Position numbers and translations under genes: made by a program
NCBI GenBank assembly: GCA_009777775.1
Contig: WRLE01000016.1
Location: 1-64,000, forward strand
Source: Oscillospiraceae bacterium
GTDB lineage: Bacteria; Bacillota; Clostridia; Oscillospirales; Oscillospiraceae
Length of the DNA: 64,000 nt
Direction of reading: 5' to 3'
The notes under the pieces: generated by a model
The model's input: the letters and a program-made list of their open reading frames with translations, nothing else
Told to the model about the DNA's origin: nothing
Databases searched by the model: none
Part shown: positions 3,500-19,852 of the stretch, piece after piece
Layout of the letters: each line of letters starts with the position of its first letter
How positions within the stretch are numbered: position 1 is the stretch's first letter

Positions 3500-5290
3500 A
3501 TGGGCGAAAAAGAAGAAGAGCAAAGAATGAAAATTCTTAATGCTTTACAGTTAGCATATACAAAGTTTTATGCACGAAATATGTACATTCCAATAAATGA
3601 TGGGACCTTTCCGATTGACTCGTTATCAGCTCTGGACCAATTAGTACACAAAGCAGGTGAAGCAGTAGCAGTTATTTCTAATGAACTCGATATAAAGATT
3701 GATTTGTTTATTCCTGATGAATTACGTATCTTGTCAACAGAAACAATAGTTATGAATAAATTTAGCAAAGATGAATCTAGTTCAAGTAAGTATTCTCGAG
3801 TAGATAAAGACAATGGGGACAATAAACCGGTTCTTGTAACTATTCAAAAGAATAAACTTAAAATAATAGATGGTTGGAGAGGCAAAGAGTCAGATAATAA
3901 TGGGCTATTCGCAACTGATTATCCAGTTGCATTTCTCGTCAGTTTCTCCTCAGAAAATGATTCTGAATGGGGATTGGATGAAATAGAAGATGACATAGAA
4001 CGCAGCGAGAAGCGTACTATGTTTCGTTTTTACCCTCAAATAATACGAAACGCAGTAAATGAAGAATCATATGATACTCACACGAGTCTTCGCCATGCTC
4101 TAGCGAACATATTATGCTCACTTGCTGAGTTTATCAGAGCAAGAGGTATTGATATAATTGCTCAATTCCACTCAAAACGAATGACTTCTTTTACCAGAGT
4201 TACACGACATGAACTATTCCAAAAAATACAAGGTATGAATCAATTACTTGAATCATATGAAGCATACCTTACTAATTATTTTCAAAAAAGCTTAAATACA
4301 CCTATAATTGATAACACATGGGAAAACAATGTATTTCAAGATAATCTAAGGGTCTTTCTCCTTGATACTAAATCCTTTGTAAGAACAACATCGGTTCAAA
4401 TCAATGCTAGTAGATTTGTAGATGGTATCCCTGACCCTGAAATGAGATTCTTTTATCCATATCGTGAATTTATGTTCAAATGGGAATCTATATTTAGGGA
4501 GCTTTGCAAAAATAGACATATTGATGTCGATTTTTCGGAAATTATACGTTTAGCTGATTCGAATCGGCCTCAAATGTATGGTGACCCACAGCAAATTGAG
4601 CAGGTTGTTTACAATTTATTTTTAAATGCGCTCAAATACGCCCATGAAGATACAGTGGTTGAGTTTGACTTAAGGCTCGATGATACTAAAAGAAACTATA
4701 TTTTTGAGGTTACAAACTACAGCACACCTATTCCAACAAATGAAGAAGATAGTATCTTTAATTTTGGTGTTCGTGGATATGAGTGGATGCACGGTGATGG
4801 TAAAGATAATACAGGTGATGGATTAGGTTTACATATATCAAGAGAGATAGCTCGTAGACATGGTGGTGATGTCGAGTTGATAGAAAACTCGCATATTGAT
4901 AATTATAATATCCCAGCTTTATTATTATTGCCATTTATACAAGATGAATGGAAGCATGGTGGTAAGTATTATTATCTAAGGCAACCAAATTGGCAGAATG
5001 AATCTTTGGAATCTGATGCATTAGAGCATAGCAAAAACTTATATAATACAGGTAAATTTAAGACATCAGAAAATATTATTGAATATAGTCTTGAAAATCT
5101 AGTCAGCAATGATTTACTTCGATACATTAAGGCTCGAACTGAGGGATTTAATACTTTATGCGATTTACCTGACTTTTCCAGAGATTATTACTCATTACAC
5201 AAAATGCGAGAGTATTGGAAAAGGATAGATAAACCTACAAACCGTATAACATTTAGAATGACTATACCACATACAAGTAATGAAGAGTGA
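3500..5290 (+). CDS. soluble histidine kinase-like protein (GHKL ATPase)
   Basis: This 596-aa protein has no membrane span or signal peptide. The first 230 residues match no sensor domain I know. A probable phospho-acceptor segment, TRHELFQKI (His about 237), is followed by a helical stretch. The HATPase_c core is at about residues 365-475: N box QVVYNLFLNALKYA, a poorly conserved G1 region, and G2 box GDGLGLHISREIARRHGG. A C-terminal tail of about 110 residues follows. The start ATG has GGAGG 6 nt upstream. It is first in the island and overlaps or abuts the receiver gene by a few bases, so the pair is probably a cytoplasmic two-component system. The signal sensed is unknown. Confidence 0.8.
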   Translation: MGEKEEEQRMKILNALQLAYTKFYARNMYIPINDGTFPIDSLSALDQLVHKAGEAVAVISNELDIKIDLFIPDELRILSTETIVMNKFSKDESSSSKYSRVDKDNGDNKPVLVTIQKNKLKIIDGWRGKESDNNGLFATDYPVAFLVSFSSENDSEWGLDEIEDDIERSEKRTMFRFYPQIIRNAVNEESYDTHTSLRHALANILCSLAEFIRARGIDIIAQFHSKRMTSFTRVTRHELFQKIQGMNQLLESYEAYLTNYFQKSLNTPIIDNTWENNVFQDNLRVFLLDTKSFVRTTSVQINASRFVDGIPDPEMRFFYPYREFMFKWESIFRELCKNRHIDVDFSEIIRLADSNRPQMYGDPQQIEQVVYNLFLNALKYAHEDTVVEFDLRLDDTKRNYIFEVTNYSTPIPTNEEDSIFNFGVRGYEWMHGDGKDNTGDGLGLHISREIARRHGGDVELIENSHIDNYNIPALLLLPFIQDEWKHGGKYYYLRQPNWQNESLESDALEHSKNLYNTGKFKTSENIIEYSLENLVSNDLLRYIKARTEGFNTLCDLPDFSRDYYSLHKMREYWKRIDKPTNRITFRMTIPHTSNEE

Positions 5291-5295
5291 CACAA

Positions 5296-5814
5296 ATGAA
5301 AATGGAACATATAAAACGAGTATTATTAATAGAAGACCAACTTGGACCAAGGCGAATTGCTTATAATTTACAATCATTTGGATTTATCGTTGAATGCGCT
5401 AATAATTTAAATGAAGCGTTTTGGTATCTCGAACTTGATGAAACTATACCAGCTTTTGATGCCATTATACTAGATTTAAATTTGCCTAGTATAGTCAATG
5501 ATTACTTACCTAGCAATGATGGTCAAATGAAAAAAAGAACGATAAATGATCCTTCAGGAATGAACGGATATGAATATTATAAAAGCATTTTTCTTAATGA
5601 GGAAGCCGTTATACCAAATAATAAGAAAACCTTACTAAGTTATGCTACTGAAAAACGTATTGCTTTTTATACTGGATATGGTCACTTAATTAGAGAAATA
5701 GCAGAAAATGATGGTATATCTTTAAATGGTATACCTATATTTGACAAAGCAGATTCAAATTTAACAAGAGAAATTGTAAATTGGATTAATGAGCTTGAAC
5801 CTGTAGAATCGTGA
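5296..5814 (+). CDS. receiver-only response regulator with a long insertion
   Basis: A single CheY-like receiver of 172 aa. It has the acidic start VLLIEDQ, phospho-acceptor Asp in ILDLNLP (about residue 60), Thr in YTGYG, and Lys in FDKAD. About 50 residues separate the acceptor Asp from the Thr strand, much longer than in CheY, so a loop or subdomain is inserted there. No output domain follows, so any effect must come through protein contact or phosphotransfer. A GTG at 5287 overlaps the kinase stop codon (5288-5290); I prefer the ATG at 5296. Either way translation is probably coupled to the kinase. A natural partner is the giant ATPase that follows. Confidence 0.75.
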   Translation: MKMEHIKRVLLIEDQLGPRRIAYNLQSFGFIVECANNLNEAFWYLELDETIPAFDAIILDLNLPSIVNDYLPSNDGQMKKRTINDPSGMNGYEYYKSIFLNEEAVIPNNKKTLLSYATEKRIAFYTGYGHLIREIAENDGISLNGIPIFDKADSNLTREIVNWINELEPVES

Positions 5815-5863
5815 CAATACCAATGTAATAAACATTCTTTTATGAAAGTGACGATATTATAAT

Positions 5864-8800
5864 ATGAATAGATATATTGATTGCCCTGATAACTGTGTTG
5901 CCAGAAATTCATTTTGTGGGTTAGAAAAGCATCTTGAATGTTGTGCGCAATTAAGCGAAAAATATAACTATTTGTTTAGTAGGTGGGTAACAGATAAAAA
6001 GAAATATCAAAGCAAACTAAGTGCAACTACCCACTCATATCCAACTTATAGTCTTCATGATGCTTCACATTCTCAGGAGATTATTGAGTCAATTGAGCGT
6101 CTACTAGGTGAGGACCGTATATGTATGCTATCTCCAACAGATATATGGCTTATGCTAGAATGTGCATACACTCATGATTTTGGTATGCTTATTTCACACC
6201 AGGAGGTTGTTGATGAGTGGTTTAAGGATTTTGATCGTTTTAAAGAGTTTCTGTTAAGTAAGGTACTAGAAAATCGCTCATTGTGGGCACACTTGGAATA
6301 TGTTTTTCCATTAATTGAAGAAATAGCAAATCAAAAAGACATAAACATCGACGACTTAAAGCATGCGTTTTATTTTCGATATGATGAGCAAGATAAGCAA
6401 CAATTATTATCTTTGCTAAGTGCCAAATCTAGTTCTCCATTAAAATTCACAAACGCAATGACATCTGTAATGCAAGAGTATAGACGATCTAGTCATAACT
6501 ATCTTTCTAGTCATAATTATCTTACTATGATTGATGAAGATGACCCAATTGATGCATATTTACATAAGCTAATTGCCGATGTATCTTCTTTCCATGGAGA
6601 GGATTTAAAAGAGCTGCTTACAAAATTTGACAATAAAATTGTTGATGGGTATGGCTCAGACTATGCACATCCACGATTTGTGGCTATTATGCTACGATTG
6701 GGTGATTTATTAGATTTAGCATATGGAAGATTTAATAACCATATTTTGAATGTTAGTGGAAATAATGACAGAAGCTCGTTAATTCATCAAATTAAACATC
6801 ACTTTTCAACGAAATCAGTCAACCCAAAGAGAATTGTTGTTCGTGCTAATTATAAAACTGAGGATATTAAACGATATATTAATACTATTTCAAATGATTT
6901 CAAAGTATTTGAAAATCAGGAATTTGAGCTTGGTATAGAAGCAGCTAAAGCGTTATTAGTCTGGTTGGAATGGTTGACAGAAGAAATTATGTTTCTGGCT
7001 GTAAACTGGATTGAAATAGTTCCTGAAGACTTTAGTGGGTCAATCCCTTTATGTGATTTTATTGTCAAACTTAATGATGATGAAGTATTATTAGATAATG
7101 TCGACTTAAAGTATGAAATAAACACAAAAAGGGCAGCTGAAATTATTGAAGGCGTGAGTATGTACAATTCTCCAGGATTAGTCTTTTTACGTGAGCTTAT
7201 TCAAAATGCAATTGATAGCTCGAAGCGCCAGCTTTTTTATGACATAGAAAATAATGGAGTATATCCATTAACTAGAAATCAAATAGACTCGAATAACGCA
7301 AAAAAAACTAGTACAAATAGATGGAATAATAATCCATCAGATTTGTACTGGTTTTTGTCCGAATTGGGAGAACGTAACATGCAATATCGAATTGAAATAT
7401 CTGTAGTACACGTGAGGGATGAGTCGTGTACCATTAATAATTGTAATGGTATCGAATGTACAAATAATTGTGATTCTAGTGTACAAATAAAAATACGAGA
7501 TTATGGAATAGGATTAGATGATAATCGTTTCAAACATATGAAAAATATTGGAGCTATATATGATGAAGATTTGAATAGAGTGCGACAGCATATGCCAAAA
7601 TGGTTAAGGCCAACTGGTGCTTTCGGGGTTGGTATGCAATCAGTTTTCCGCAATGTAAAAAGCTTTTTAGTGAGGACTGTTTCGTATGAGGGAAATAGTA
7701 GGACTGGAAGAGAGGCTGTTTTTTATACATCGAGAATGGGAGGAGAAATTTACGCAAAACCAATGGATATTGATGATCATAAAGATTTTGGTAGAGGTGC
7801 TGAAATTGTCATCCAGTTTAATGATAATGATGCTAATACTTTTTTACGAAATGCGTATATTGGATCAAATAGAAAATATTACAATATTGATACATTTGTT
7901 CCTAAATATATTCAAATTAGCGAAATTATAAAGAACTATGTTATAGACAATTGTACATATGCTGGATTTCCTATTATCTTTCTTGACCCTGAAAATAAAA
8001 ATACTCAAACACATCACAATAATATATATGGTTTGTTTGGTGATTTTGTTATATCAGTATATAATGGTTCTCATATTTTGGTCAGAGAAGTAGCTAATGT
8101 TAATGATAAACTGACTTATAAAAAAGAGCTTGATGATAATAATAATAATTCGAATGAGATATTTGCATTTTCGTATTGGGATGATGAAAATGCTATTTTA
8201 ATTAAGTATACTGTATTAAAAACATCAAATAATGACAATAAACCGAATATATGGTTTAAAGGTATTAGGGTTAATGAGGAATTTGTATCTTCATTAGTAA
8301 CACTACCTACGATTTTTGGAACACGGTATAACTGGGATATTGATATACATATACTTGGTTTCGAAGCCTCAGATTATTTGGTTGTTAGTCGTGAAGGTTT
8401 TTTGCCATTAAAAGCATCTCAGATATCGAAAATAATCCAAAAAACACATATAGCTTGTATTAAAACGATATTTACTATACTTTTTGACAATTTTGTAGAA
8501 AATAGTTATTTTAATGGTGATAACAAAGCAATTGACAAATTTATTCAAATATCAAAAAATTATAAATTCAGAATGGCATTGTCGAGTATGCAAATGAGTG
8601 GTATAAGTGAATTTGTTAATCAGTTAACAAATGAGTATAATGATTTATTGAATGAATCTACCATTTATACATTAAATAAACGTTCTATTGCACGAATAAC
8701 AAATGTTAAAAACGTTGATATGCTTCTTTGGTACATTGATACTAGTTTTTTTGCAATGTCATCATCTACTTTATCGTTTTGCTCAATATTAAGCAATATT

Positions 8801-9379
8801 TTTGTTTGCGCAGACGCAACATGGAATAGTTATTACCAGATTATTGGTGCTGCTAGAATGCACATAATTAAACTTGAGCCAATATACTTTGAAAATACAC
8901 TAATACAAAATCCTGCAAAAATTATTTATATGCCAGAGATACGAAGTGATTCAAATATATATACTGACATTAGTAGACAAGCATTTCATTTTTATGGTAA
9001 TGATTTGTACGAATCCGCTAATGATATTGTTAGACCGGTGCTACCTGGGATACAAGAATATAAGGAAATTATAGTAAAATCGATTCCAGATGAATTACAA
9101 ACTCCTAGTAACCGTCTTTTTATAAGCTGGACTGTAATGCCATTTACAGTTAGCGAATATGAAAATGTAAAAAATAATAAAAGTTTCAAAAATGCAAGCG
9201 AGCTAGTTTCAGAGTTAGTTAAGTTCCTTGAATACCCTGACAATGTTAGGCTTATTACATGGGTTGCTAATCATTCAGCGACACTTGATATGTCGCAATC
9301 ATTAAATAATAGAATCGCATTGGTTAAGAGTAAGTATCATGAATTAATCGAAAACCTATTTGGAGAATCATGGTATTGA
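5864..9379 (+). CDS. giant HD-domain + Hsp90-like (GHKL) ATPase protein
   Basis: The protein is 1171 aa. An N-terminal HD-phosphohydrolase-like region shows HDASH (about 65), a THDFGM doublet (about 104-108) and RLGDLLDLAYG (about 280), a plausible H...HD...D set for metal binding. A GHKL/Hsp90-like ATPase follows, with N box LRELIQNAIDSS (about 442-453), D-x-G-x-G box RDYGIGLDD (about 545) and lid GAFGVGMQSVFR (about 585). The last 550 residues match nothing I recognise. A Cys-rich patch, CTINNCNGIECTNNC, sits between the ATPase boxes. No membrane span is seen. The SD is weak (GAAAG upstream) and the gap to the response regulator is 49 nt, consistent with one operon. HD + GHKL fusions occur in uncharacterised accessory loci; the substrate is unknown. 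Confidence 0.75.
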   Translation: MNRYIDCPDNCVARNSFCGLEKHLECCAQLSEKYNYLFSRWVTDKKKYQSKLSATTHSYPTYSLHDASHSQEIIESIERLLGEDRICMLSPTDIWLMLECAYTHDFGMLISHQEVVDEWFKDFDRFKEFLLSKVLENRSLWAHLEYVFPLIEEIANQKDINIDDLKHAFYFRYDEQDKQQLLSLLSAKSSSPLKFTNAMTSVMQEYRRSSHNYLSSHNYLTMIDEDDPIDAYLHKLIADVSSFHGEDLKELLTKFDNKIVDGYGSDYAHPRFVAIMLRLGDLLDLAYGRFNNHILNVSGNNDRSSLIHQIKHHFSTKSVNPKRIVVRANYKTEDIKRYINTISNDFKVFENQEFELGIEAAKALLVWLEWLTEEIMFLAVNWIEIVPEDFSGSIPLCDFIVKLNDDEVLLDNVDLKYEINTKRAAEIIEGVSMYNSPGLVFLRELIQNAIDSSKRQLFYDIENNGVYPLTRNQIDSNNAKKTSTNRWNNNPSDLYWFLSELGERNMQYRIEISVVHVRDESCTINNCNGIECTNNCDSSVQIKIRDYGIGLDDNRFKHMKNIGAIYDEDLNRVRQHMPKWLRPTGAFGVGMQSVFRNVKSFLVRTVSYEGNSRTGREAVFYTSRMGGEIYAKPMDIDDHKDFGRGAEIVIQFNDNDANTFLRNAYIGSNRKYYNIDTFVPKYIQISEIIKNYVIDNCTYAGFPIIFLDPENKNTQTHHNNIYGLFGDFVISVYNGSHILVREVANVNDKLTYKKELDDNNNNSNEIFAFSYWDDENAILIKYTVLKTSNNDNKPNIWFKGIRVNEEFVSSLVTLPTIFGTRYNWDIDIHILGFEASDYLVVSREGFLPLKASQISKIIQKTHIACIKTIFTILFDNFVENSYFNGDNKAIDKFIQISKNYKFRMALSSMQMSGISEFVNQLTNEYNDLLNESTIYTLNKRSIARITNVKNVDMLLWYIDTSFFAMSSSTLSFCSILSNIFVCADATWNSYYQIIGAARMHIIKLEPIYFENTLIQNPAKIIYMPEIRSDSNIYTDISRQAFHFYGNDLYESANDIVRPVLPGIQEYKEIIVKSIPDELQTPSNRLFISWTVMPFTVSEYENVKNNKSFKNASELVSELVKFLEYPDNVRLITWVANHSATLDMSQSLNNRIALVKSKYHELIENLFGESWY

Positions 9380-9452
9380 TACTAACCTAAAGAGATACGC
9401 ACCATGCCACATATTTAGTATTGATTTGCTAGGTTACGAATCTATTTTGTAA

Positions 9453-9482
9453 AATAGCATATTATATGAAAGGAATGCTATT
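9453..9482 (+). promoter_or_regulatory. hairpin holding the SD of the membrane-protein gene
   Basis: AATAGCAT (9453-9460) pairs perfectly with ATGCTATT (9475-9482). The SD AAAGGA (9469-9474) lies in the loop and the ATG starts at 9486. This may limit or regulate initiation. Confidence 0.4.
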
Positions 9483-9485
9483 GCA

Positions 9486-10235
9486 ATGAAATCGAATAAA
9501 ATACGAACATTTAAATTGAGTCCAATTACAGCATCGGTGATTTTAGGTATGTTTACATTTATTATTGGCTGGTGTTCGATGTTGGTTTTCTGGATATCAT
9601 ACGGGAAACCAGCTGATCGAGGATTTACATTTTATGTTTCATTTTTGTTTGGTGATTCGATATTTTTACCAATTCTAGCTGGTTCGCTTCTTGTGTATGT
9701 TAAATTAACTGGTGTAAAACATGATAATCAAGCTCCTTCATTGTTTCAAAAACGTATTGCATGGATTGTAGCTATAATCAGTGCATTAATTGGTGCTATC
9801 ATACAAGGTAGTTGGTTACTTGATAACCAAATTGAATTAAACTGGACTATACCAAATCCGCATGAATTTAATGGTGCAGGATGGTGGCATGCAGCATTTT
9901 TCGTATTCTATTTTGCTATTATGGGTTATCTCTTAGTAAGATTTATTATAGCAAGATATATAGGAAGATTGCATATTGAAACAAACTCACAAAAGAATTC
10001 ATTATATTTAATTTGGTTTGGTGCTAGCGGTTATGCATATTTACGACAACAAGAAAGTCTTGGTATTAGCTTTGTAAACTGGAGACTCTTAGTCATGATT
10101 CCTTCTGTTGTACTTGTTGGTTTGCTTGTTAGCACGATGCTATGTAAACGACGTCCAGTTATTACCGACTTTAAAATAATATTAGCTAGCAGTATTTCTG
10201 CATATGGAATTGCTGCAGTTTCTGTAGGTCTTTAA
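9486..10235 (+). CDS. N-terminal part of a split polytopic membrane protein
   Basis: A 249-aa hydrophobic protein with about six predicted spans (for example SVILGMFTFIIGWCSMLVFW and IAWIVAIISALIGAII). It ends at a TAA (10233-10235). The same reading frame continues without another stop for 561 codons to 11918, and the codons just after the stop encode a further hydrophobic segment (EPWEILISIVFALMATR). One ancestral protein of about 810 residues interrupted by a single nonsense codon is therefore the simplest reading. No family is recognised. It follows the HD/GHKL gene by about 106 nt and may be its membrane partner. Confidence 0.65.
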   Translation: MKSNKIRTFKLSPITASVILGMFTFIIGWCSMLVFWISYGKPADRGFTFYVSFLFGDSIFLPILAGSLLVYVKLTGVKHDNQAPSLFQKRIAWIVAIISALIGAIIQGSWLLDNQIELNWTIPNPHEFNGAGWWHAAFFVFYFAIMGYLLVRFIIARYIGRLHIETNSQKNSLYLIWFGASGYAYLRQQESLGISFVNWRLLVMIPSVVLVGLLVSTMLCKRRPVITDFKIILASSISAYGIAAVSVGL

Positions 10236-10286
10236 TATAATAATGTTGAACCATGGGAGATTCTTATTTCGATAGTATTCGCTTTA

Positions 10287-11918
10287 ATGGCAACACGTTT
10301 GGTGCCTGTTTGCCAATCTATTAGAAATATTATTATTTCTGTTGAAATTTTAGTTGGCACTACTGCTTTTTCGACAATCTTTATTTTTATACAAATTCCA
10401 ACAATTACACAGTCAATTACTACAATGATTGTTTCAGCCGCTTTATTAATAGGAAATCTTGTGTTTATTGCCGATAGTTACCTATTATTTGAACAGATAA
10501 TATTACATACAAAGCAAAAAGAACGCTTAAAATGGGTTATTTACTTTTGGGCACCTATTCTATTATTCTCGACAATGCTTCTCAGTATAGCTCTAGATAG
10601 CAACTCTAGATTCTATGTTTGGCGCGAATGGTTACTTTCGATAGTATTAGGGACATGCATTCCTATTTGTCAAATCATGTTTACTGTTTTTGCTACTTTC
10701 CCTGAAGAGTACAATGAAATAAGGTATTCATCAATAAATAAGAATACTGCATATTTAAGAATTGTTATTATGGTCGCTTGTGTAGTTGTATTATCAATTC
10801 TATATGTTGGTCATTTTTCTTTAAATTTTTCTCACACATCATTAAAATATGTTTTCCTGCTTCTACCACTCCTAGCTTCATATCTAATTATGAAATTAAT
10901 GCAGAGACATAATAAAGATCAAACAGATTACATAAATTCTAGTATTAATTCTATGTTTAAAACATGTGTTCTACTGTTTGTTGTAGCTCTTGCTTATGCC
11001 TCACTATTTATGCTAATAAAAGGTTTACGAGAGCCAATCTATTACTCTTGGTGGGATATAATAATACCTCTACCAAGCATTGGTACGACATTCTTTATAA
11101 TTAATGGAATAGTTTATAACGGTAGATTATTATGTGGTTTTCGTTTGAAAAAAGTAAAAGAAGACAAAGCTTTTATAATTATTCTAGTTGAAATATTATT
11201 TGGTTGCATTTGTATTTTCCCATATTCGATACTACCATCTAAGCTACCTAATAATGTAGAATTTTCAGTATTATCACCATTAATAGGGATTATAGGACTC
11301 TATTTTGCTATCTGTACACTTCCTCGTAGTACTATACAAGCGTTAGGATGCTCATCAAAGGGAAATGTTATAGAAAATGCAGGTATGGATGGTGTTATTC
11401 AAGATACTTTCAATTCATTTATTATGATTGCCATTGCAGGGCTTCTTGTGATACACCTCATTGAAATATTGGCAGTTTTCGAAAACTTATATAAGACAAT
11501 TGCGTTTGTATTAGCTTATGTTAGTGCTGTTATAGTAATAATTGGTTTTACTCTAGAAAACAATTCCAAACATTATAAAGTTACATATATCGAAGGGATT
11601 TTTATGGAACTAGACTCTAAAGGTGTTGATATTACGTATGAAAAGTACACATTAAAAAAACACTTAGAAAACCAAGCTTTAATATTATATGTTATGATGT
11701 TTCCATATTCTATACTACACTTTATTAAATTTTTAATAGAAAAGTTAACAGACTCAAGAAATGCAGGAATTCCACTTAGGATTTCTGCCTATAACGAATT
11801 CCTACTTCGTCTTCCAGGACTGAATAATTTTGCATCGGATGAAAAGTATAAAGACTCTTTTGACCAAAGACTGTTACCTGTTGTTTCACGCAACAATAAA
11901 TTATTTGATGGTAAGTGA
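10287..11918 (+). CDS. C-terminal part of the split polytopic membrane protein
   Basis: 543 aa from the first in-frame ATG, with roughly ten or more hydrophobic segments and a soluble tail of about 90 residues after the last. No SD of normal spacing precedes this ATG; GGGAGA at 10255-10260 is 26 nt away. Independent translation is therefore doubtful unless it restarts after the upstream TAA. It shares frame 3 with 9486-10235. If the stop is real and fixed, this half is probably not made and the gene is a recent pseudogene. A sequencing error or strain polymorphism is the alternative. Confidence 0.6.
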   Translation: MATRLVPVCQSIRNIIISVEILVGTTAFSTIFIFIQIPTITQSITTMIVSAALLIGNLVFIADSYLLFEQIILHTKQKERLKWVIYFWAPILLFSTMLLSIALDSNSRFYVWREWLLSIVLGTCIPICQIMFTVFATFPEEYNEIRYSSINKNTAYLRIVIMVACVVVLSILYVGHFSLNFSHTSLKYVFLLLPLLASYLIMKLMQRHNKDQTDYINSSINSMFKTCVLLFVVALAYASLFMLIKGLREPIYYSWWDIIIPLPSIGTTFFIINGIVYNGRLLCGFRLKKVKEDKAFIIILVEILFGCICIFPYSILPSKLPNNVEFSVLSPLIGIIGLYFAICTLPRSTIQALGCSSKGNVIENAGMDGVIQDTFNSFIMIAIAGLLVIHLIEILAVFENLYKTIAFVLAYVSAVIVIIGFTLENNSKHYKVTYIEGIFMELDSKGVDITYEKYTLKKHLENQALILYVMMFPYSILHFIKFLIEKLTDSRNAGIPLRISAYNEFLLRLPGLNNFASDEKYKDSFDQRLLPVVSRNNKLFDGK

Positions 11919-12363
11919 TTTTAAACAGTCTTTAAACAAACAAGGTATTATCAATTCAAACTGTATTAGTTTGAACATATTGAAACAATGATGTTTGATG
12001 GACAAGCCCAACCTTATATTATATATCGTATACTAGTGTATCTAATAATTCGCAGTGGTATAAAATATTGTAATCTATAACAATCTTTAATAGTACTATG
12101 ATGTAAAGATGTAAAAAATTTGAGAACACAAACAAACTGGTTCAGTTTTGTAAACAAATATACGATGAATATAATATAACATGGATTTTTACATGAGATG
12201 CTCTTTTATCCTGTAAAATTTATGAAGTGTTTGATACATAAAATATTAAATTATATTCTTCTTGATGTATGAGCCTTTCCTTGAATGACTATACTCATAA
12301 AATAAGATTATAAAGTATTTATAATATTTACCAAAATTATACTATTTTTTTTTAATTAACCTA

Positions 12364-12392
12364 TTGACATTGGAATATATTATCTATAGAAT
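12364..12392 (+). promoter_or_regulatory. strong sigma-A-type promoter of the second module
   Basis: TTGACA (12364-12369), exactly 17 nt, then TAGAAT (12387-12392). Transcription would start near 12399, about 240 nt before the GTG at 12640, giving a long leader RNA. Confidence 0.7.
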
Positions 12393-12449
12393 GACTTGGG
12401 TATTGCTAGATGCTGCAGTTTATAGCTATACTCTTGAGGAGGATACAAA

Positions 12450-12509
12450 GTGAAGAAAATCGTATGTAGTGCCTTTATATACGATTATCATAGCTTTTTC
12501 GAGAGATAA
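12450..12509 (+). CDS. putative leader peptide, 19 aa
   Basis: GAGGAGGA (12436-12443) lies 6 nt before a GTG that opens a 19-codon frame, MKKIVCSAFIYDYHSFFER, ending in TAA. The SD is the strongest in the island yet serves only this tiny frame. It lies between the promoter and a set of alternative hairpins. This is the layout of translational or transcriptional attenuators such as erm and tet leaders, but the peptide resembles none I know. Confidence 0.5.
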   Translation: MKKIVCSAFIYDYHSFFER

Positions 12510-12519
12510 GTGTCTTGAA

Positions 12520-12585
12520 GAGGTTGTGTAGAGTTTTTGCACACCTCATTGAGGGCTTTCTTTATTTGTGGGATTTCTCTTATGT
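12520..12585 (+). promoter_or_regulatory. competing hairpins, possible attenuator
   Basis: GAGGTTGTGT (12520-12529) can pair with ACACCTC (12541-12547) with one bulge. The same CCTC (12544-12547) can instead pair with GAGG (12551-12554), and that GAGG can pair with CCTC near 12581-12584. The mutually exclusive arms start 11 nt after the leader stop codon. Further down, ACTCCC (12598-12603) could mask the SD AAGGGGG (12625-12631). Confidence 0.4.
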
Positions 12586-12639
12586 ATGCTCCTCTAAACT
12601 CCCAATGTTATAAATGGGATTTAAAAGGGGGCATTACTG

Positions 12640-15003
12640 GTGGTAGAAATCATCAAAGACGAAGCTTCTTTTGCCAATGACAATGAAATGTATCATGCTA
12701 CGAAAAAAGATGCGAAAGTATCATATGATGATATATTAAATGAACTTAAAATTGCAGATTGGGTGAAGATGGAAGCACCACCAATCGATGGAGAATATAT
12801 TTTAAGGAAATCTCTCGAAAACTTAGATTACGAGATTTGGAACAAAATCACACTGGTTGTAGATGAGTTTTTATCAGCTCGTTGTAGTTTGTTGAAAAAT
12901 ATTGATGTGGAAGGCATTATAGAAGGAAATAATGCTTCTATTTCTAGTATGATGAAATTTCTCCCAGTATACCTGCAAACCCATGAAGATATGTTAAAGC
13001 GTTTGTTATCGTTAGCAGATAATCCCGATTATGCTGACGATATTTTTGATAGTGGAATTATTGAAGCAGCTGTTAATTTTGATTTTGATATTGACGAATT
13101 TGATGAAAATATAGATAAACGGAGATATCCAAAACCATATTTTTTCGCACCAATAGTTCTTGATCAGTTGCTATTAGCAGACACGATTAGAAAAAAGCAC
13201 AATGAAATGGTAAGCCAATATACAGGAGACTTTGCACAATGGTTAAAGATGCTCGCAATGGCAAATCTGCGGCAGTCTTTTGTATTTGCTACTCGTTATA
13301 ATAATAAAACTTATCGGTATAAACTTGGTGTTGAAGCTGGACCAACTGCGACTCGTCAAAAAAGTTCTGAAATTCATTTAGCTAATTTATCGAGACACAT
13401 TATTTCCGAGTATTATTCACAAGCTAGTTATTTAAATACTAATAAAAACAGTGGTAGAGCGGAATTTAACTTTGCATTGATTGGTGACATTGATAGAGAA
13501 GAATTACGACAATTATGCATTTCACTAGACCAGGATTTTGAAATTGTTGAAATAAAAACAAGCATTAGAGTGGATGTCAAACTGTCTGTGTACACTAACA
13601 CTAACAAAGATACAGATACAGATACAGATACAGATACAGATATCGAAGGATTACTTAATAATCGTAATGCTAATTTCGAATACATTACCATAGTAAAAGA
13701 GGATGCAGTTAAGAAAAGTGGCAATGGGTTAAGATTTGACAAGCTCGATGGACTGGAAAAAAAGCTTCTAAGCGAAGGACACAATGCTATATTGTTTTTT
13801 GATAATTCAGCTTTTTACAAAGTTCGTACTCTTACTACTGATAAGTTAAAAGAATTCAATGCGAAGGTATATCAAGATAGTCACCGAAATCGCCCATTAT
13901 GGATTCAACGAGTGCAATTAATGCAGTATGAAGCATCAGGCGAGTATGGATTTTCTAGATGCAGGAGATTCAATAATCGATTGTTCAAGCAAATACGAAA
14001 AATGGCTGAACGACTTAATAGCAGTAACGGAGCGTCAACATACATAGTGTTGTCTGGCTCTGATTGTGCTCAATTCATTATGGAGTGCCCTGAAATATAT
14101 CAGGAGTATGCAAGCAGCGATGAATGGGATATGGCTACTCGTGTTACAGTATTAAGGGTATCGACTTCAATGAAAAAAGAACCTATTGTCCTTAATCCAG
14201 ATGATGAGGAATATGGTAGAGCTGATTACAATACTTTAAAGCTTTCTCCTTCACAAATATTTCGTAGAATAATAGAACCAGGAAAGTATCAATCTTTATT
14301 TAGTGATGATGCTGTCAATAACAAAAATTATAAATCTGATAAGATATTTAAGTTGCTTAAGGATCTCATAATCCAACTCGACTTTTCTAGAATAAAAGAT
14401 AATGGTAATAGTATAGTGGAGTTCGCATTATTTAAATTTGATAATAAAACAAGTGATCCACCCAAAATTGTATTAGAAAATCAAGTAGGTTATGAAGCCA
14501 AAGTCATATCTCTTGTTAAAGGTTTCCTTTCAGCTGCATTTTCTTCTGTAGCAAGTGACACCAGTATACCATGTACTATTAGCGACTTGTTTAGCTCTGC
14601 TGTAATGCGCTACGGAACTCATGTGAGCTCTGTTGTATTTCTGTATTTCTATAATACAGGCAAATTTAATCGTTCTTCAGTAAAAATAGAATATAAAGAT
14701 AATATGGAATATATACCAAGTATAGAAGGCCCCGAACGTCGAGCTGAAATCGCTGCAGGGGGAGATATTTATGCTTTGGATGGAGTAGTGAGGACACTAG
14801 CGATACCTGGATATGATTTCGGACATGAGTATGTTGTAAAAACAATGTTAAAGAGAGCACTTGCAGGAACCTCACGGGAAGGAGAGGTAGATAGAGTCTT
14901 CAACTTCTTAAAGGAGTGGATATCTGAATCTTGTAATGAAATGGGCTTTTCTACATACTATCTTAACATTAATGCGAAAAAGGCATTGTTAAATAATACA
15001 TAA
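12640..15003 (+). CDS. 787-aa protein of unknown family
   Basis: I do not recognise a domain. It is a soluble, acidic protein without signal peptide or membrane span. It starts at GTG with AAGGGGG 8 nt upstream. A run of Asp-Thr repeats (about residues 324-335) comes from a GATACA microsatellite and separates an N-terminal region from the remaining 450 residues. It has its own terminator at 15013-15044. It is the first gene after the attenuator-like leader and precedes the ParA-like and HD genes on the same strand, so it is probably part of their system. Confidence 0.6.
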   Translation: MVEIIKDEASFANDNEMYHATKKDAKVSYDDILNELKIADWVKMEAPPIDGEYILRKSLENLDYEIWNKITLVVDEFLSARCSLLKNIDVEGIIEGNNASISSMMKFLPVYLQTHEDMLKRLLSLADNPDYADDIFDSGIIEAAVNFDFDIDEFDENIDKRRYPKPYFFAPIVLDQLLLADTIRKKHNEMVSQYTGDFAQWLKMLAMANLRQSFVFATRYNNKTYRYKLGVEAGPTATRQKSSEIHLANLSRHIISEYYSQASYLNTNKNSGRAEFNFALIGDIDREELRQLCISLDQDFEIVEIKTSIRVDVKLSVYTNTNKDTDTDTDTDTDIEGLLNNRNANFEYITIVKEDAVKKSGNGLRFDKLDGLEKKLLSEGHNAILFFDNSAFYKVRTLTTDKLKEFNAKVYQDSHRNRPLWIQRVQLMQYEASGEYGFSRCRRFNNRLFKQIRKMAERLNSSNGASTYIVLSGSDCAQFIMECPEIYQEYASSDEWDMATRVTVLRVSTSMKKEPIVLNPDDEEYGRADYNTLKLSPSQIFRRIIEPGKYQSLFSDDAVNNKNYKSDKIFKLLKDLIIQLDFSRIKDNGNSIVEFALFKFDNKTSDPPKIVLENQVGYEAKVISLVKGFLSAAFSSVASDTSIPCTISDLFSSAVMRYGTHVSSVVFLYFYNTGKFNRSSVKIEYKDNMEYIPSIEGPERRAEIAAGGDIYALDGVVRTLAIPGYDFGHEYVVKTMLKRALAGTSREGEVDRVFNFLKEWISESCNEMGFSTYYLNINAKKALLNNT
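13609..13644 (+). repeat. GATACA hexanucleotide microsatellite inside a gene
   Basis: Five perfect GATACA units followed by GATATC. The unit is two codons, so copy-number change would lengthen or shorten a Thr-Asp linker without a frameshift. Confidence 0.85.
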
Positions 15004-15012
15004 GTATATTGT

Positions 15013-15044
15013 AAACCGGACTGCGTAAGCCGTCCGGTTTTTTT
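15013..15044 (+). terminator. rho-independent terminator after the 787-aa gene
   Basis: AAACCGGAC (15013-15021) pairs perfectly with GTCCGGTTT (15032-15040), followed by TTTT. It separates the 787-aa gene from the ParA-like gene, which therefore needs readthrough or its own promoter. Confidence 0.85.
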
Positions 15045-15162
15045 GTGCTTAAAGTTTGTAAAGCATGTGTAAAATGTTCGTAATTTATCAGAGTGCATTA
15101 TACATATAATTCGGATTCTTTTGGTATATTTTATATAATTATTTTTTGGAGGATACGCAGAC

Positions 15163-17118
15163 ATGCCTAATAAAACAAGTCGTTTACATCTCTTTACATC
15201 AGTAAAAGGAGGGAGTGCAAAGACTTCAACAGCACTACTATATGCGCATGAGTTATCTTTGCGTTATGAACACAAAGACAAAAACGGAGAGACAATATTC
15301 CCAAAAGTCATTGTTATTGATGCGGATGTACGTGGGACGTCAATGGAAACCGTTTTATTGGGGAAACAAAAGGATGTTGGTATAGAATACTTAAATGAAG
15401 GTGATGTAGATACCGATAGTACAGAATACTCTATTAGAGACAACAAGTATAGTTTTGATGATTACGGCAGTAGGAGATATTATACAAATGCGATTATTGG
15501 ACTAAGAATGTCATCGGAGCTTGTATGGGAAGATGGTTTTATTACATATGTTGCTGCTATGAAAGATGCAACGGATACTACTGCTCAGGAATTTGAATTA
15601 GAAATTAATGAAGCGGAAGAAAACGATATGACAAATGATGATGAACCATTATTAGACACTCTAGAACCAGAACAAAATGTTATCGATCAGCAGGGGGCGT
15701 TCTATGTTGCTCTAGCTAATCAAAACCAAGGTAGCAAAGACAGGTTTGGTACAGATGTAGCATCAAGAGATGGAGCAGCTGTTTCTACCATGTATTTTCA
15801 GACATGTTTTAAAACATTGCTTGATTCACTCGATAAGATGTCATTAAATGACGATGGTGGATATTTAGGATTCGACTTTATTTTAATAGATATGTCACCA
15901 GGCCATGATGAATATGTTCGCTGTATAATTGAGCTATGTCTTTCGAAATATACAGATAAAAAAGTGACAAGCGAACGTCTAAAAGAGCATAGAGATTATA
16001 AAGAGGAGAGATTGCTTAACACATGGGAACCTACTATACATAGTATGACATTACCAACAGAGCAGCATTTTTATCCTGCACTTAATCATTTGCTAGCGAT
16101 AATCGGATCAACTAGACTAACAACAAACCATATGAATCGAATTAATCTGACGGTAGTTGATTCATATAATTATGCGAAAATACCAGAGGAAACAAATCAG
16201 AGATCAGATGAACAAATAACGAAAGAGTTACACAAGCTAGTATATACTTATTTATTAGGTGATTATGGTATATTACGGAGCATATCGATACAGAGACGAA
16301 ATTCTATCGTAATGAAATTACGAACAATTCCGTATATAGAAGCTTTTGGCAGTCTAACATTACCAGTTTTCGATATAGCTAATACAGGGGGAGTGTTGAA
16401 AAAATCAATTGATAGTGTATTACGTATGTTTAGTGGATTGGGTGAGCATACAGACTCAAAAGTAATTAAACAGCTAGGAGGGGATTATTACTTCGATACT
16501 GACTTAGTAGCTAGTATCATACCATATACCGTATGTGTTTATTGTGTAAAAATGACAAGCAGCATAGAACGGCTCAATCCTGAATGGGATAGCAACAACT
16601 CGCCAATAATAACATTAAGAAACAATGATGGCGAAGAATGTGAATTAATAGAAAATGCTCTTAGTTCAGATAAAAAAATCAATATGCACACATTCCACCT
16701 TACTAGTAGTGAATTTGATGTGTTCAAAGTCTTTTATAATGGTAACGATACAGGAGCAGAGATAAATGAATATGAGCAAAATATTACATTAAATTTTCTT
16801 ACGATATTTTTTAGACTCAATGATACTACTGAGTCTTCCTGTTGCACTATAAATGCTTTTTATAACGATATTGAAATCGAAAGTGGAGATATTGTACTTG
16901 GTACAAGAAATTTTGAAATAATTATTAAATGTCTCAATATTGAAGAATACAAACTGACCTGGACAGGTATACCTGAAGGGACTTCTGTTAAAAATGATAA
17001 TTCGTTGCGCGTTAGCATAGATCGTCTTAGAAGGAGTCTTGATGTAGAAATTATTGTAGAAAAGATTGATACGAGTGAATCAAGAGATAATGAATCAGGA
17101 GGCGATGTTAATGACTAA
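15163..17118 (+). CDS. ParA/MinD-like ATPase with long C-terminal extension
   Basis: A 651-aa protein, more than twice the size of ParA. It has the deviant Walker A of the family, KGGSAKTST (about residues 15-23), VIVIDADVRGTS (about 50-61) and a Walker-B-like FILIDMSPGHDEY (about 239-251). An acidic insertion fills residues 125-190. The C-terminal 150 residues or so look like an all-beta domain with no recognised family. The SD is GGAGGA, 9 nt from ATG. The stop overlaps the start of the next gene by 8 nt, which argues for coupled synthesis. ParA-type ATPases position cargo on nucleoid or membrane; here the cargo may be the HD protein. That is inference. Confidence 0.7.
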   Translation: MPNKTSRLHLFTSVKGGSAKTSTALLYAHELSLRYEHKDKNGETIFPKVIVIDADVRGTSMETVLLGKQKDVGIEYLNEGDVDTDSTEYSIRDNKYSFDDYGSRRYYTNAIIGLRMSSELVWEDGFITYVAAMKDATDTTAQEFELEINEAEENDMTNDDEPLLDTLEPEQNVIDQQGAFYVALANQNQGSKDRFGTDVASRDGAAVSTMYFQTCFKTLLDSLDKMSLNDDGGYLGFDFILIDMSPGHDEYVRCIIELCLSKYTDKKVTSERLKEHRDYKEERLLNTWEPTIHSMTLPTEQHFYPALNHLLAIIGSTRLTTNHMNRINLTVVDSYNYAKIPEETNQRSDEQITKELHKLVYTYLLGDYGILRSISIQRRNSIVMKLRTIPYIEAFGSLTLPVFDIANTGGVLKKSIDSVLRMFSGLGEHTDSKVIKQLGGDYYFDTDLVASIIPYTVCVYCVKMTSSIERLNPEWDSNNSPIITLRNNDGEECELIENALSSDKKINMHTFHLTSSEFDVFKVFYNGNDTGAEINEYEQNITLNFLTIFFRLNDTTESSCCTINAFYNDIEIESGDIVLGTRNFEIIIKCLNIEEYKLTWTGIPEGTSVKNDNSLRVSIDRLRRSLDVEIIVEKIDTSESRDNESGGDVND

Positions 17119-19852
17119 TGATAGTTTCAAAATTATTTTTAGTGAAGCAAAATTTTTAGAATTTATGCAAAGCTTTAGGTTAGAAAAAGTTAATGATGAA
17201 TTAATCACTACCATCGATGATAATGAAAGTAATGATATGTTTACAGCGTCTCCTGAAAAAGCTTTTAATATCAATCACAAATCATTAATTGAGGAAATGG
17301 ACTTCTCTAACCCAATACATGAAGTAGCATTTCATGTGTTCAAGCAACAAATAATGAATAAGTATAATGTTGATATGCCTTCAAAATTTATTGAAACTGA
17401 TGCTGAAAACCTGCGAAGTATGTACGAAATGGTTTATGGAGAAAATGAGAATAAACGAGAATCATTATATTCATTTCGGTTGTCAGAAGAAATTTTATTA
17501 CCTAATTTTGTTGGTATATCATCATTAACACGCTTGTTTAGTGAACGATATATGCATTATGAATGGAATATGCATACAGAAATTAAAGCAACTGCAGATA
17601 ATGAATTTGATTGGTCATATTATCGTGATCATATGACACATCAAGTGCGTAATGCATTTACTGCTATTGAATTGCTAGATAAGCTTACCGTTAGATATGA
17701 AAACCGACAAGATGGAGCTGCTACTGATGTGAAACCTATTTCACTAATTAAAACAATGTCTGAGCTATTATCAGGTCAAGTAAGCTATGGCGATGGAGGC
17801 GCAACGCATATTTCTAGCTATTTTATTGAATCTGTACGCCGAGCAGTAGATGATATAAGATCAAATCTACCTCTTTTTAAAGTGTATGATGACTTGCTGA
17901 AGGTTGTTTATAAATCAACTAATAATAAGTCCATTAAAGTGATTAATGAACGTAAATATAACGTTTTTCTTAATGACCGACTTAGTCAGCATTTTAGTGA
18001 ATACATTATTAGGGCTTCTCTTGTTATGGCAGCTCTATTTCATGATTTCGGATACCCAATAGAATATACTCGACAACAATCGCAAATGCTTGGTAAACTT
18101 ATTGATTCTGCGCATTATTTTATTAGTGAATCACACAGATTTGATGAAATATACAGTCTGCTTTCTGATAGTATACTATGTAGACTCGTAGGTAAAGACG
18201 AAATCAGAAAAGTTTTTTTGGAGACAAATTCTGGAGTTACACATGGGTGTCTCTCTGCATTGGCGTTTTTACTATTCTTTTATGAATCTGGGCAGATTCA
18301 CGGATTACCTGCCGAACAAAGAGCTGCTGTTGAATTAGCTGCTGTTATTATTTATGATCATACTCTTTGGTATCCAAGTATGCCGAAGTATTCTGGTGAT
18401 GATAGTGTACCAAAACTACAATACATAAAGCCATCTAATGTCCATAATCCTTTATCTTATTTTTTCCGATTCTGCGATGATATTCAAGAATGGGAGAGGC
18501 TTTATTTTAAGCTTTCAGATAACGAAAACTTGCGAATATGCTCAGATTGTCATTTACCGATAGTGAGTTTTGTACCTGAATATAGCCATGTAAGTAATAG
18601 TGAAGCCGAAAACAAGCGAGATAGAAAAATTCGTAAATTTCTTAAAGAAAATCCTGCGTATATCTGTGAATGTGTAAGACGAACGCATCCTTCTTTAAAG
18701 GAAGTGACCAAGGCATTATTTGATGTTGCTAGTGCAGCTAATAGTAAAGAAACAAATTGGTCTAATATGCTTGAGCATATAGGAAAGACTGTTATTGCAT
18801 CAGATATTGAATTCAGACGTATAAACATTGTAAATGCTTGTAAGACTGTTGAGTTTATACCATTACAGGATCAATTTGGGTCTGTGAAAATGGAGATATT
18901 GAATAATTCAATTTTTTTACCTGAATCTGTGAAAGCGAAAATGATACCTGTTGATGGTATGAAACGTTCACATGCTCATTATCTTCTACATATTAATTAT
19001 AATCATTATAAAATGCTTCAGATGGCAATTATCGACCCGAATTTTGCTTTTTTTCGTATGAAGGAAATCAACGAAAACTTGAAACCTCTCCTAGAAAGAC
19101 AGCTTTCTTTCCCAGATATATTGGTTTATACTGTTGCATCTATGAATCCCATAACACTGAAAGTACGAATAATAGAACGATTTCTTTTAATGAATGATAT
19201 TAGTATTAGAGAATTAAAATCAATGCCTGAGCCTGATATTAACCGGATTATAAAATATATAATGAAACCAGCCTCATTAAATATGAATAGTAGAAATTTT
19301 AACATATTTTATGCCTGTATAAAAATTTATTTAAATCTTTTATGTAAGTCATATGAGATTCACTCCACGAATCAAACTGATCATGTATTGCTTGGGAAAA
19401 AACCAATTACTAGCAATGAATTTAAAACTGAAATAGAGCAATTAGACGTAAGCATAATAGATGCACAAAGGCCAGGGCTAATAGAATCATATCGAAATAA
19501 ATTTGGAAATGCTCTCGATATGCTGATTCAAGAATTTTTTAAAGACGAGTGTAAAATGATAGGGTATACCGAAACTATAGAACCTGGAATCAAGTCTGGT
19601 CTACCTAGCAAATACTATGAACAATATTGGGACAAAAACAGCGCAAAACGCATTCGTACTGTTGTTAGTACATATTGCAGGTCAACAAATTATGTTTACT
19701 CTCTATATAATGAGGTTGAAGTGGAGAACAATTCTTTTAAGTATATACATACCCTTGATGTACATTCAGATTTAACGATATTTCATGCTCTTGATAGGTG
19801 GATTACGCTAGAAGAAGAAAAATTAACGCTACCAGATGAAGGACAACAATAG
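17111..19852 (+). CDS. 913-aa HD-domain protein with putative zinc site
   Basis: The central part has HD-phosphohydrolase-like features: YYRDHMTHQVRNAF (about residues 174-187), ALFHDFGYPIEY (about 312-323), IIYDHTLWYPS (about 415-425) and FRFCDDIQEWER (about 452-463), a plausible H...HD...H...D metal set. A CSDC ... CEC arrangement (about residues 477-520) may bind zinc. The last 390 residues are unrecognised. AGGAGG at 17097-17102 is 8 nt before the ATG at 17111, which I chose over ATG 17105. The start overlaps the ParA-like gene's stop. HD enzymes act on nucleotides or phosphodiesters; the substrate here is unknown. Confidence 0.7.
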   Translation: MTNDSFKIIFSEAKFLEFMQSFRLEKVNDELITTIDDNESNDMFTASPEKAFNINHKSLIEEMDFSNPIHEVAFHVFKQQIMNKYNVDMPSKFIETDAENLRSMYEMVYGENENKRESLYSFRLSEEILLPNFVGISSLTRLFSERYMHYEWNMHTEIKATADNEFDWSYYRDHMTHQVRNAFTAIELLDKLTVRYENRQDGAATDVKPISLIKTMSELLSGQVSYGDGGATHISSYFIESVRRAVDDIRSNLPLFKVYDDLLKVVYKSTNNKSIKVINERKYNVFLNDRLSQHFSEYIIRASLVMAALFHDFGYPIEYTRQQSQMLGKLIDSAHYFISESHRFDEIYSLLSDSILCRLVGKDEIRKVFLETNSGVTHGCLSALAFLLFFYESGQIHGLPAEQRAAVELAAVIIYDHTLWYPSMPKYSGDDSVPKLQYIKPSNVHNPLSYFFRFCDDIQEWERLYFKLSDNENLRICSDCHLPIVSFVPEYSHVSNSEAENKRDRKIRKFLKENPAYICECVRRTHPSLKEVTKALFDVASAANSKETNWSNMLEHIGKTVIASDIEFRRINIVNACKTVEFIPLQDQFGSVKMEILNNSIFLPESVKAKMIPVDGMKRSHAHYLLHINYNHYKMLQMAIIDPNFAFFRMKEINENLKPLLERQLSFPDILVYTVASMNPITLKVRIIERFLLMNDISIRELKSMPEPDINRIIKYIMKPASLNMNSRNFNIFYACIKIYLNLLCKSYEIHSTNQTDHVLLGKKPITSNEFKTEIEQLDVSIIDAQRPGLIESYRNKFGNALDMLIQEFFKDECKMIGYTETIEPGIKSGLPSKYYEQYWDKNSAKRIRTVVSTYCRSTNYVYSLYNEVEVENNSFKYIHTLDVHSDLTIFHALDRWITLEEEKLTLPDEGQQ

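Follow-up and report, generated by a model that had tools for sequence, protein, structure and literature searches.

In the Bacillus subtilis vmlR leader, a uORF lies in the first hairpin, which acts as an anti-antiterminator, and an antiterminator competes with an intrinsic terminator; the last hairpin masks the Shine-Dalgarno (SD) sequence and is opened in the induced state through alternative pairing (PMC9226507). The B. subtilis bmrB-bmrCD locus combines a translated leader peptide with alternative stem-loops that control downstream transcription (PMC4191407). In Escherichia coli, the uORF toiL senses translation stress in front of topAI, a non-resistance toxin-antitoxin operon, which shows that a conflict-type operon can stand under a translation-sensing uORF (PMC12121999). 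Attenuators of such layout appear to be known mainly from drug resistance and amino-acid operons. A literature search whose scope excluded most subscription papers found no attenuator or leader peptide at phage-defence genes; a small frame described in Staphylococcus aureus lies downstream of a defence gene (PMC13009471).

The Oscillospiraceae DNA analysed here (the window, 64,000 nucleotides in full) contains a leader of about 240 bases with the same set of elements as vmlR, namely a uORF in the first hairpin, a terminator, an antiterminator, and an SD-masking hairpin (Table 1). The likeness claimed is one of layout. The vmlR uORF has 3 codons and precedes an ABC-F resistance factor (PMC9226507), whereas the frame in the window has 19 codons and precedes a gene without known family; unlike in vmlR, the 5' arm of the antiterminator is built from the last codons of the frame. 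The leader also follows the bmrB-bmrCD principle, although the bmrCD genes encode a drug transporter, unlike the gene in the window, and induction there is described as requiring leader translation, whereas here a lack of leader translation is also predicted to give the ON state (PMC4191407). The toiL system is described as using SD occlusion and Rho-dependent termination, in contrast to the intrinsic terminator of the window leader (PMC12121999). The device works like a known one; the gene behind it is what is new. We favour the reading, at a probability of about 0.62, that the leader is a ribosome-mediated transcription attenuator that is ON if translation of the leader is not completed.

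Table 1 Features of the leader and of the genes that follow it in the window.
Feature	Position	Strand	Basis or remark
Promoter, sigma-A type, TTGACA-17-TAGAAT	12364..12392	+	11/12 match; transcript start near 12399 assumed
Leader SD, GAGGAGG	12436..12442	+	sequence; with ATAC forms SD1 (12436-12446)
Leader frame, 19 codons, GTG start, TAA stop	12450..12509	+	peptide VKKIVCSAFIYDYHSFFER, first residue read as M
Hairpin within leader frame	12458..12486	+	fold of 12457-12490, -11.5 kcal/mol, z -5.34
Antiterminator hairpin, 16 unbroken pairs	12489..12528	+	-18.3 kcal/mol, z -6.18
Intrinsic terminator	12512..12567	+	hairpin 12512-12556 and U-rich tail 12557-12567 (UUUCUUUAUUU)
Anti-SD arm, GUAUGCUCCUC	12584..12594	+	pairs with SD1 (12436-12446) or the downstream SD
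Hairpin masking the downstream SD (GGGGG 12627-12631)	12584..12638	+	-18.5 kcal/mol, z -3.91
Gene predicted to be controlled, 787 aa, GTG start	12640..15003	+	no known family; distant relatives by profile
Intrinsic terminator after the 787-aa gene	15015..15044	+	ACCGGAC...GTCCGGT and T run; strong
ParA-like ATPase gene, 651 aa	15163..17118	+	weak NCBIfam AAA_KGGVGR match (E 5.7e-4); aligned with ParA-like relatives
HD-like protein gene, 928-aa frame	17066..19852	+	true start uncertain; motifs across 16 aligned members

The near-consensus promoter of the original prediction is present, with 11 of 12 consensus positions and a 17-base spacer. A site of this quality is not rare by itself in so AT-rich a stretch: when the intergenic region (11919-12639) is shuffled with its dinucleotides preserved, 62 of 1000 sequences contain one. 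The prediction also held for the leader frame, which was said to have the best SD in the island. GAGGAGG lies 7 bases upstream of the GTG start, and its pairing with the 16S tail (-12.2 kcal/mol) is the strongest among the eight island starts compared, the next being -10.7 kcal/mol. A short frame with a seven-base SD was found in 12 of 1000 shuffles of 11919-12639, and the combination of frame, SD, and an 11/12 promoter in none of 1000. Judged from sequence, the leader thus has the short frame with its own SD close behind a promoter that is typical of attenuators of the vmlR/bmrB type. An aromatic-amino-acid attenuator is not favoured: the frame has only a handful of the corresponding codons (3 Phe, 2 Tyr, and 1 His among 19), dispersed along its length, and the gene shows no match to a biosynthetic function.

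The RNA from the inferred start to the gene (12399-12645, 247 bases) folds at -78.6 kcal/mol, compared to -58.35 +/- 4.23 kcal/mol for 200 dinucleotide shuffles (z -4.79), and four single hairpins have z values of -3.9 to -6.2 against their own shuffles. The hairpin within the frame, when extended to 12447-12497 (-16.3 kcal/mol), is a candidate anti-antiterminator. Leader codons 14-19 form the 5' arm of the antiterminator, and the leader frame ends inside this hairpin. The terminator hairpin has a 19-pair stem with small bulges (-19.9 kcal/mol, z -4.33), followed by a U tract that is interrupted (UUUCUUUAUUUG) and has 9 T in the 12 bases after the stem. Because terminator and antiterminator have the arm 12512-12528 in common, only one of them can form at a time. 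Alternative pairing of the arms downstream of the leader frame had been proposed, and the mutually exclusive hairpins 12489-12528 and 12512-12556 bear this out; the arms GAGG 12520, CCTC 12544, and GAGG 12551 had been placed right, whereas the last CCTC lies at 12591-12594 and not at 12581. The terminator/antiterminator pair with a common arm was absent from that proposal.

The excess of this arrangement over chance was measured with a shared-arm score, the weaker of two hairpins that use one arm, computed at every position. The leader scores 18.3 kcal/mol with the arm at 12512, and none of 400 shuffles reaches this value (mean 8.8, maximum 13.8 kcal/mol). On both strands of the window it ranks first among 25 clusters of at least 13 kcal/mol, and among the 25 listed it is the most T-rich (9 in 12 bases after the stem, the next having 7). 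Since the scoring windows were picked after the site had been seen, this test somewhat favours the leader site; a looser version with three window lengths per side was still matched by none of 40 shuffles. In sequence and fold, the leader therefore has the terminator and antiterminator using one arm that are found in attenuators of the vmlR/bmrB type. The claim rests on a single sequence, in which the RNA structure is real and well above chance.

Folding the RNA with the leader region occupied or free had been proposed as a check, and in this comparison a ribosome late in the leader abolishes the antiterminator: with the P-site at codons 13-20, antiterminator formation is 0.00 with all four footprints tried. 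With a footprint of -15/+17 and the full leader, the terminator reaches 0.76-0.90 at codons 12-15, where the terminator 5' arm is still free. In ribosome-free RNA the antiterminator is at 0.97-1.00 for RNA ends 12525-12545, before the terminator 3' arm is complete. Thereafter the ribosome-free balance shifts as the RNA lengthens: the terminator is at 0.83 for end 12557 and the antiterminator at 0.94 for end 12570, where the forced terminator and antiterminator states are 2.9 kcal/mol apart. Ribosomes at codons 4-8 give a mixed result (antiterminator 0.22-0.91 over footprints), and in the model neither hairpin can form when a ribosome rests on the stop codon. Given the close ribosome-free balance, the mixed result at codons 4-8, and the block at the stop codon, the direction of the switch was taken from the order of synthesis and does not follow from the calculation by itself. 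That ribosome position on the leader would decide between the hairpins is a result of the fold model only.

We infer that transcription starts from the promoter at 12364, that the leader is translated, and that termination and switching proceed in the following direction. The transcript would carry the 19-codon leader frame, and a ribosome that has reached its last third would sit over the antiterminator 5' arm (12489-12504). This would leave 12512-12528 free to form the terminator hairpin, and RNA polymerase would stop at the U tract 12557-12567 (OFF). If the leader is not initiated, or if the ribosome stalls in its first half, the antiterminator would form first as the RNA emerges, the terminator would be blocked, and the 787-aa gene would be transcribed (ON). 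Translation is probably subject to a second layer of control, through pairing of 12584-12594 with either the leader SD or the SD of the gene.

A translational, SD-masking layer is plausible on the fold model. The anti-SD arm forms a duplex of -15.8 kcal/mol with SD1 and of -12.6 kcal/mol with the SD of the gene (SD2). The SD1 duplex is unusual, being equalled in 7 of 1000 shuffles of 12558-12626; the bare SD2 duplex, reached by 241 of 1000 shuffles, is not, although the hairpin around it stands out from its shuffles. With a ribosome on the leader SD the masking pairing is at 0.95, and otherwise the SD1 and SD2 pairings compete. The downstream SD is unpaired at just 0.01-0.11 in every ribosome position modelled and is never mostly free, partly because the 5' end of the RNA also pairs with it (-12.4 kcal/mol). 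The C-rich segment that the original prediction had masking the downstream SD thus exists (12584-12594 with 12626-12637), but the SD does not open in the model. Overall, the proposed ribosome-controlled layout emerges stronger than claimed, through a terminator/antiterminator pair tied to the end of the leader.

The original prediction was too wide in placing the whole module under this control, since an intrinsic terminator follows the first gene. Its 10-base loop exceeds the limits of our generic terminator scan. The promoter scan found no sigma-70-type site on the + strand between the 787-aa gene and the ParA-like and HD-like genes. Because of the terminator at 15015-15044 the attenuator may act on the 787-aa gene alone, and the sequence suggests that only this gene, and not the whole module, is controlled. 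Searches of Pfam, NCBIfam, and PADLOC gave no match for the 787-aa protein, and the gene is not recognizable as the resistance determinant expected behind an antibiotic-resistance attenuator. PADLOC assigned no family to any of the three module genes, which are not a known anti-phage defence system by this measure. The 651-aa ATPase contains SVKGGSAKTS, presumably a deviant Walker A motif. In the HD-like protein, H326-D327, H393-G394, H432-T433, D471-D472, and two CxxC motifs are invariant in all 16 aligned members, an H/D set that we take to be an HD phosphohydrolase signature; the Pfam HD model matches weakly and in two of these 16. The predicted structures of the 787-aa and HD-like proteins (pLDDT 49.2 and 61.3, respectively) returned nothing in Foldseek at E <= 0.001, and the HD-like profile had no match among solved structures. 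The trio of 787-aa protein, ParA-like ATPase, and HD-like protein is rare and uncharacterised.

To look for relatives of the leader, we compared its DNA with 394 genomes of the order. Matches at E <= 1 occur in 251 of these, and the whole length matches in its own genome only; the best match elsewhere (38 bases, 87%, E 2.7e-6) falls within a reading frame of AraC type and was judged to be chance. The plasmid and phage collections contain no match to the leader DNA, and the back-translated peptide has none in viral contigs. A degenerate pattern of SD, start, and KKIVC found its own genome and two matches with 3 mismatches in the 394 genomes. The 787-aa protein found only itself in genome contigs, viral contigs, plasmids, and 60 genomes (its own included).

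Only the HD-like protein led to relatives of the trio, which occupy 28 loci in genome contigs; the majority belong to Clostridia and Lachnospiraceae assemblies. Their distribution is patchy, with 3 of 295, 5 of 391, and 11 of 400 genomes in three samples, counts that include the own genome in each sample as well as weak matches. The three-gene form consists of a first gene of about 690-860 aa, a ParA-like gene, and an HD-like gene, and a longer form has two extra genes in front. In the one longer-form locus scanned (L045, on the same contig as L062), the extra genes match SspF and SspG, and further longer-form loci have genes of like length and order in this place. A distant relative of the trio thus stands behind genes matching the PADLOC models of SspF and SspG; no scanned gene of the island matches either, and the module in the window is the shorter, three-gene form. 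In a profile comparison, the 787-aa protein aligns over residues 209-775 with the first genes of seven three-gene loci (probability 83, E 9e-6). A conserved protein of some 980 aa, assigned to no family, is encoded in the longer-form loci (L058-L074), and the profile of the 787-aa protein gave no alignment to it (probability 0.2).

The HD-like proteins of the relatives have 22-28% identity, so that absence of the leader there neither supports nor excludes its function in the window. Among the 28 loci, the first gene was assigned mechanically in 23 and by hand in L052, giving 24 relatives (L057, which yielded no first gene, was left out, as were L059, L075, and L076); among the 16 longer-form loci, several may have an operon start other than the one assigned. 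No arrangement like that of the window leader was found in the 24 distant relatives, none of which is close enough to expect one, and the leader is therefore not conserved among them. An SD-led frame of 6-60 codons within 350 bases is present in 6 of 23 (L054, L058, L063, L066, L067, and L072), and no SD-led short frame was found in L052. Only L054 has AGGAGG before its short frame, which has 17 codons; its leader fold is not significant (z -1.55, 11 of 200 shuffles), and its shared-arm score is reached by 7 of 40 shuffles. Shared-arm scores reached by none of 40 shuffles also occur in L056, L074, and L061; in our reading the L056 arm lies within an upstream frame and the L074 arm upstream of the likely promoter. 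L053 (6135-6275) has a consensus promoter (TTGACA-17-TATAAT) and a long 5' UTR stem (z -3.34), with no clear leader frame.

Several other explanations would account for part of this structure. The terminator may be regulated by a sensor other than the ribosome, such as a module protein, another RNA-binding protein, or a small molecule, with the 19-codon frame incidental. Conservation of the peptide was not seen, a binder could tip so close a ribosome-free balance, and the folded 5' UTR of the distant relative L053, lacking a clear leader frame, resembles an autoregulatory site. We nevertheless regard this as unlikely, though deserving of some weight, since none of the other island starts among the eight compared has an SD as good as that of the frame, whose end falls within the antiterminator hairpin, the combination of SD, short frame, and promoter arose in none of the 1000 shuffles, and an Rfam match at the gathering threshold is absent here. 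Production of a stable small RNA of about 165 nt, ending at the terminator and acting in trans or as an RNA partner of the module proteins, would be compatible with the leader having its own promoter, a compact stable fold, and a terminator with a U tract. It is very improbable, given that the exclusive hairpin pair and the SD-masking hairpin past the terminator fit cis control instead, that Rfam has no match, and that the surroundings of the 24 relatives showed no RNA of this kind.

Transcription could also be constitutive, with a translational SD-masking switch only and a terminator that is inactive in vivo. The interrupted tail (UUUCUUUAUUUG), the bulged hairpin, and the z of -3.91 for the SD-masking hairpin are in line with this. 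In addition, a generic terminator scan of 11900-15200 returned one site, versus 1.0 expected by chance, and this site is the antiterminator hairpin; the leader terminator (12512-12567) is absent from its output. However, the 19-pair stem of -19.9 kcal/mol with 9 T in 12 bases and a shared-arm arrangement far beyond chance make an inactive terminator improbable, and we retain the ribosome-mediated transcription attenuator as the preferred reading.

For a gene of unknown function, a position behind such an attenuator suggests that it is off in normal growth and on when ribosomes falter. The trio is putatively conflict-like, on the basis of its patchy distribution, of the SspF/SspG genes next to it in the longer form, and of the genes for an HD-CE protein and a kinase that precede it in the window. 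Speculatively, the leader could be a translation-failure alarm for a conflict system, keeping a costly effector silent while ribosomes work and freeing it when translation is perturbed; we consider this rather unlikely as it stands. On that equally doubtful reading, the triggers might be, for example, phage, a competitor's antibiotic, or a toxin, and a putative immunity module, with no resistance gene, would stand behind an intrinsic-terminator attenuator. Such an attenuator would be a direct and cheap handle on the signal that an uncharacterised conflict-like module answers.

Elsewhere in the window, the first island module (3500-11918) encodes a HATPase kinase, a receiver-like protein, an HD-CE protein in which an Hsp90-like ATPase is weakly hinted at, and two more proteins without family. 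The gene at 20356-22551 was matched to DpdF by PADLOC (E 2.9e-128) and is a topoisomerase III by NCBIfam and Pfam, so this match is no sign of a Dpd system. At locus L047, the gene at 10403-11341 encodes a TIR domain with leucine-rich repeats, and next to it a distant HD-like protein with a RyR domain is encoded.
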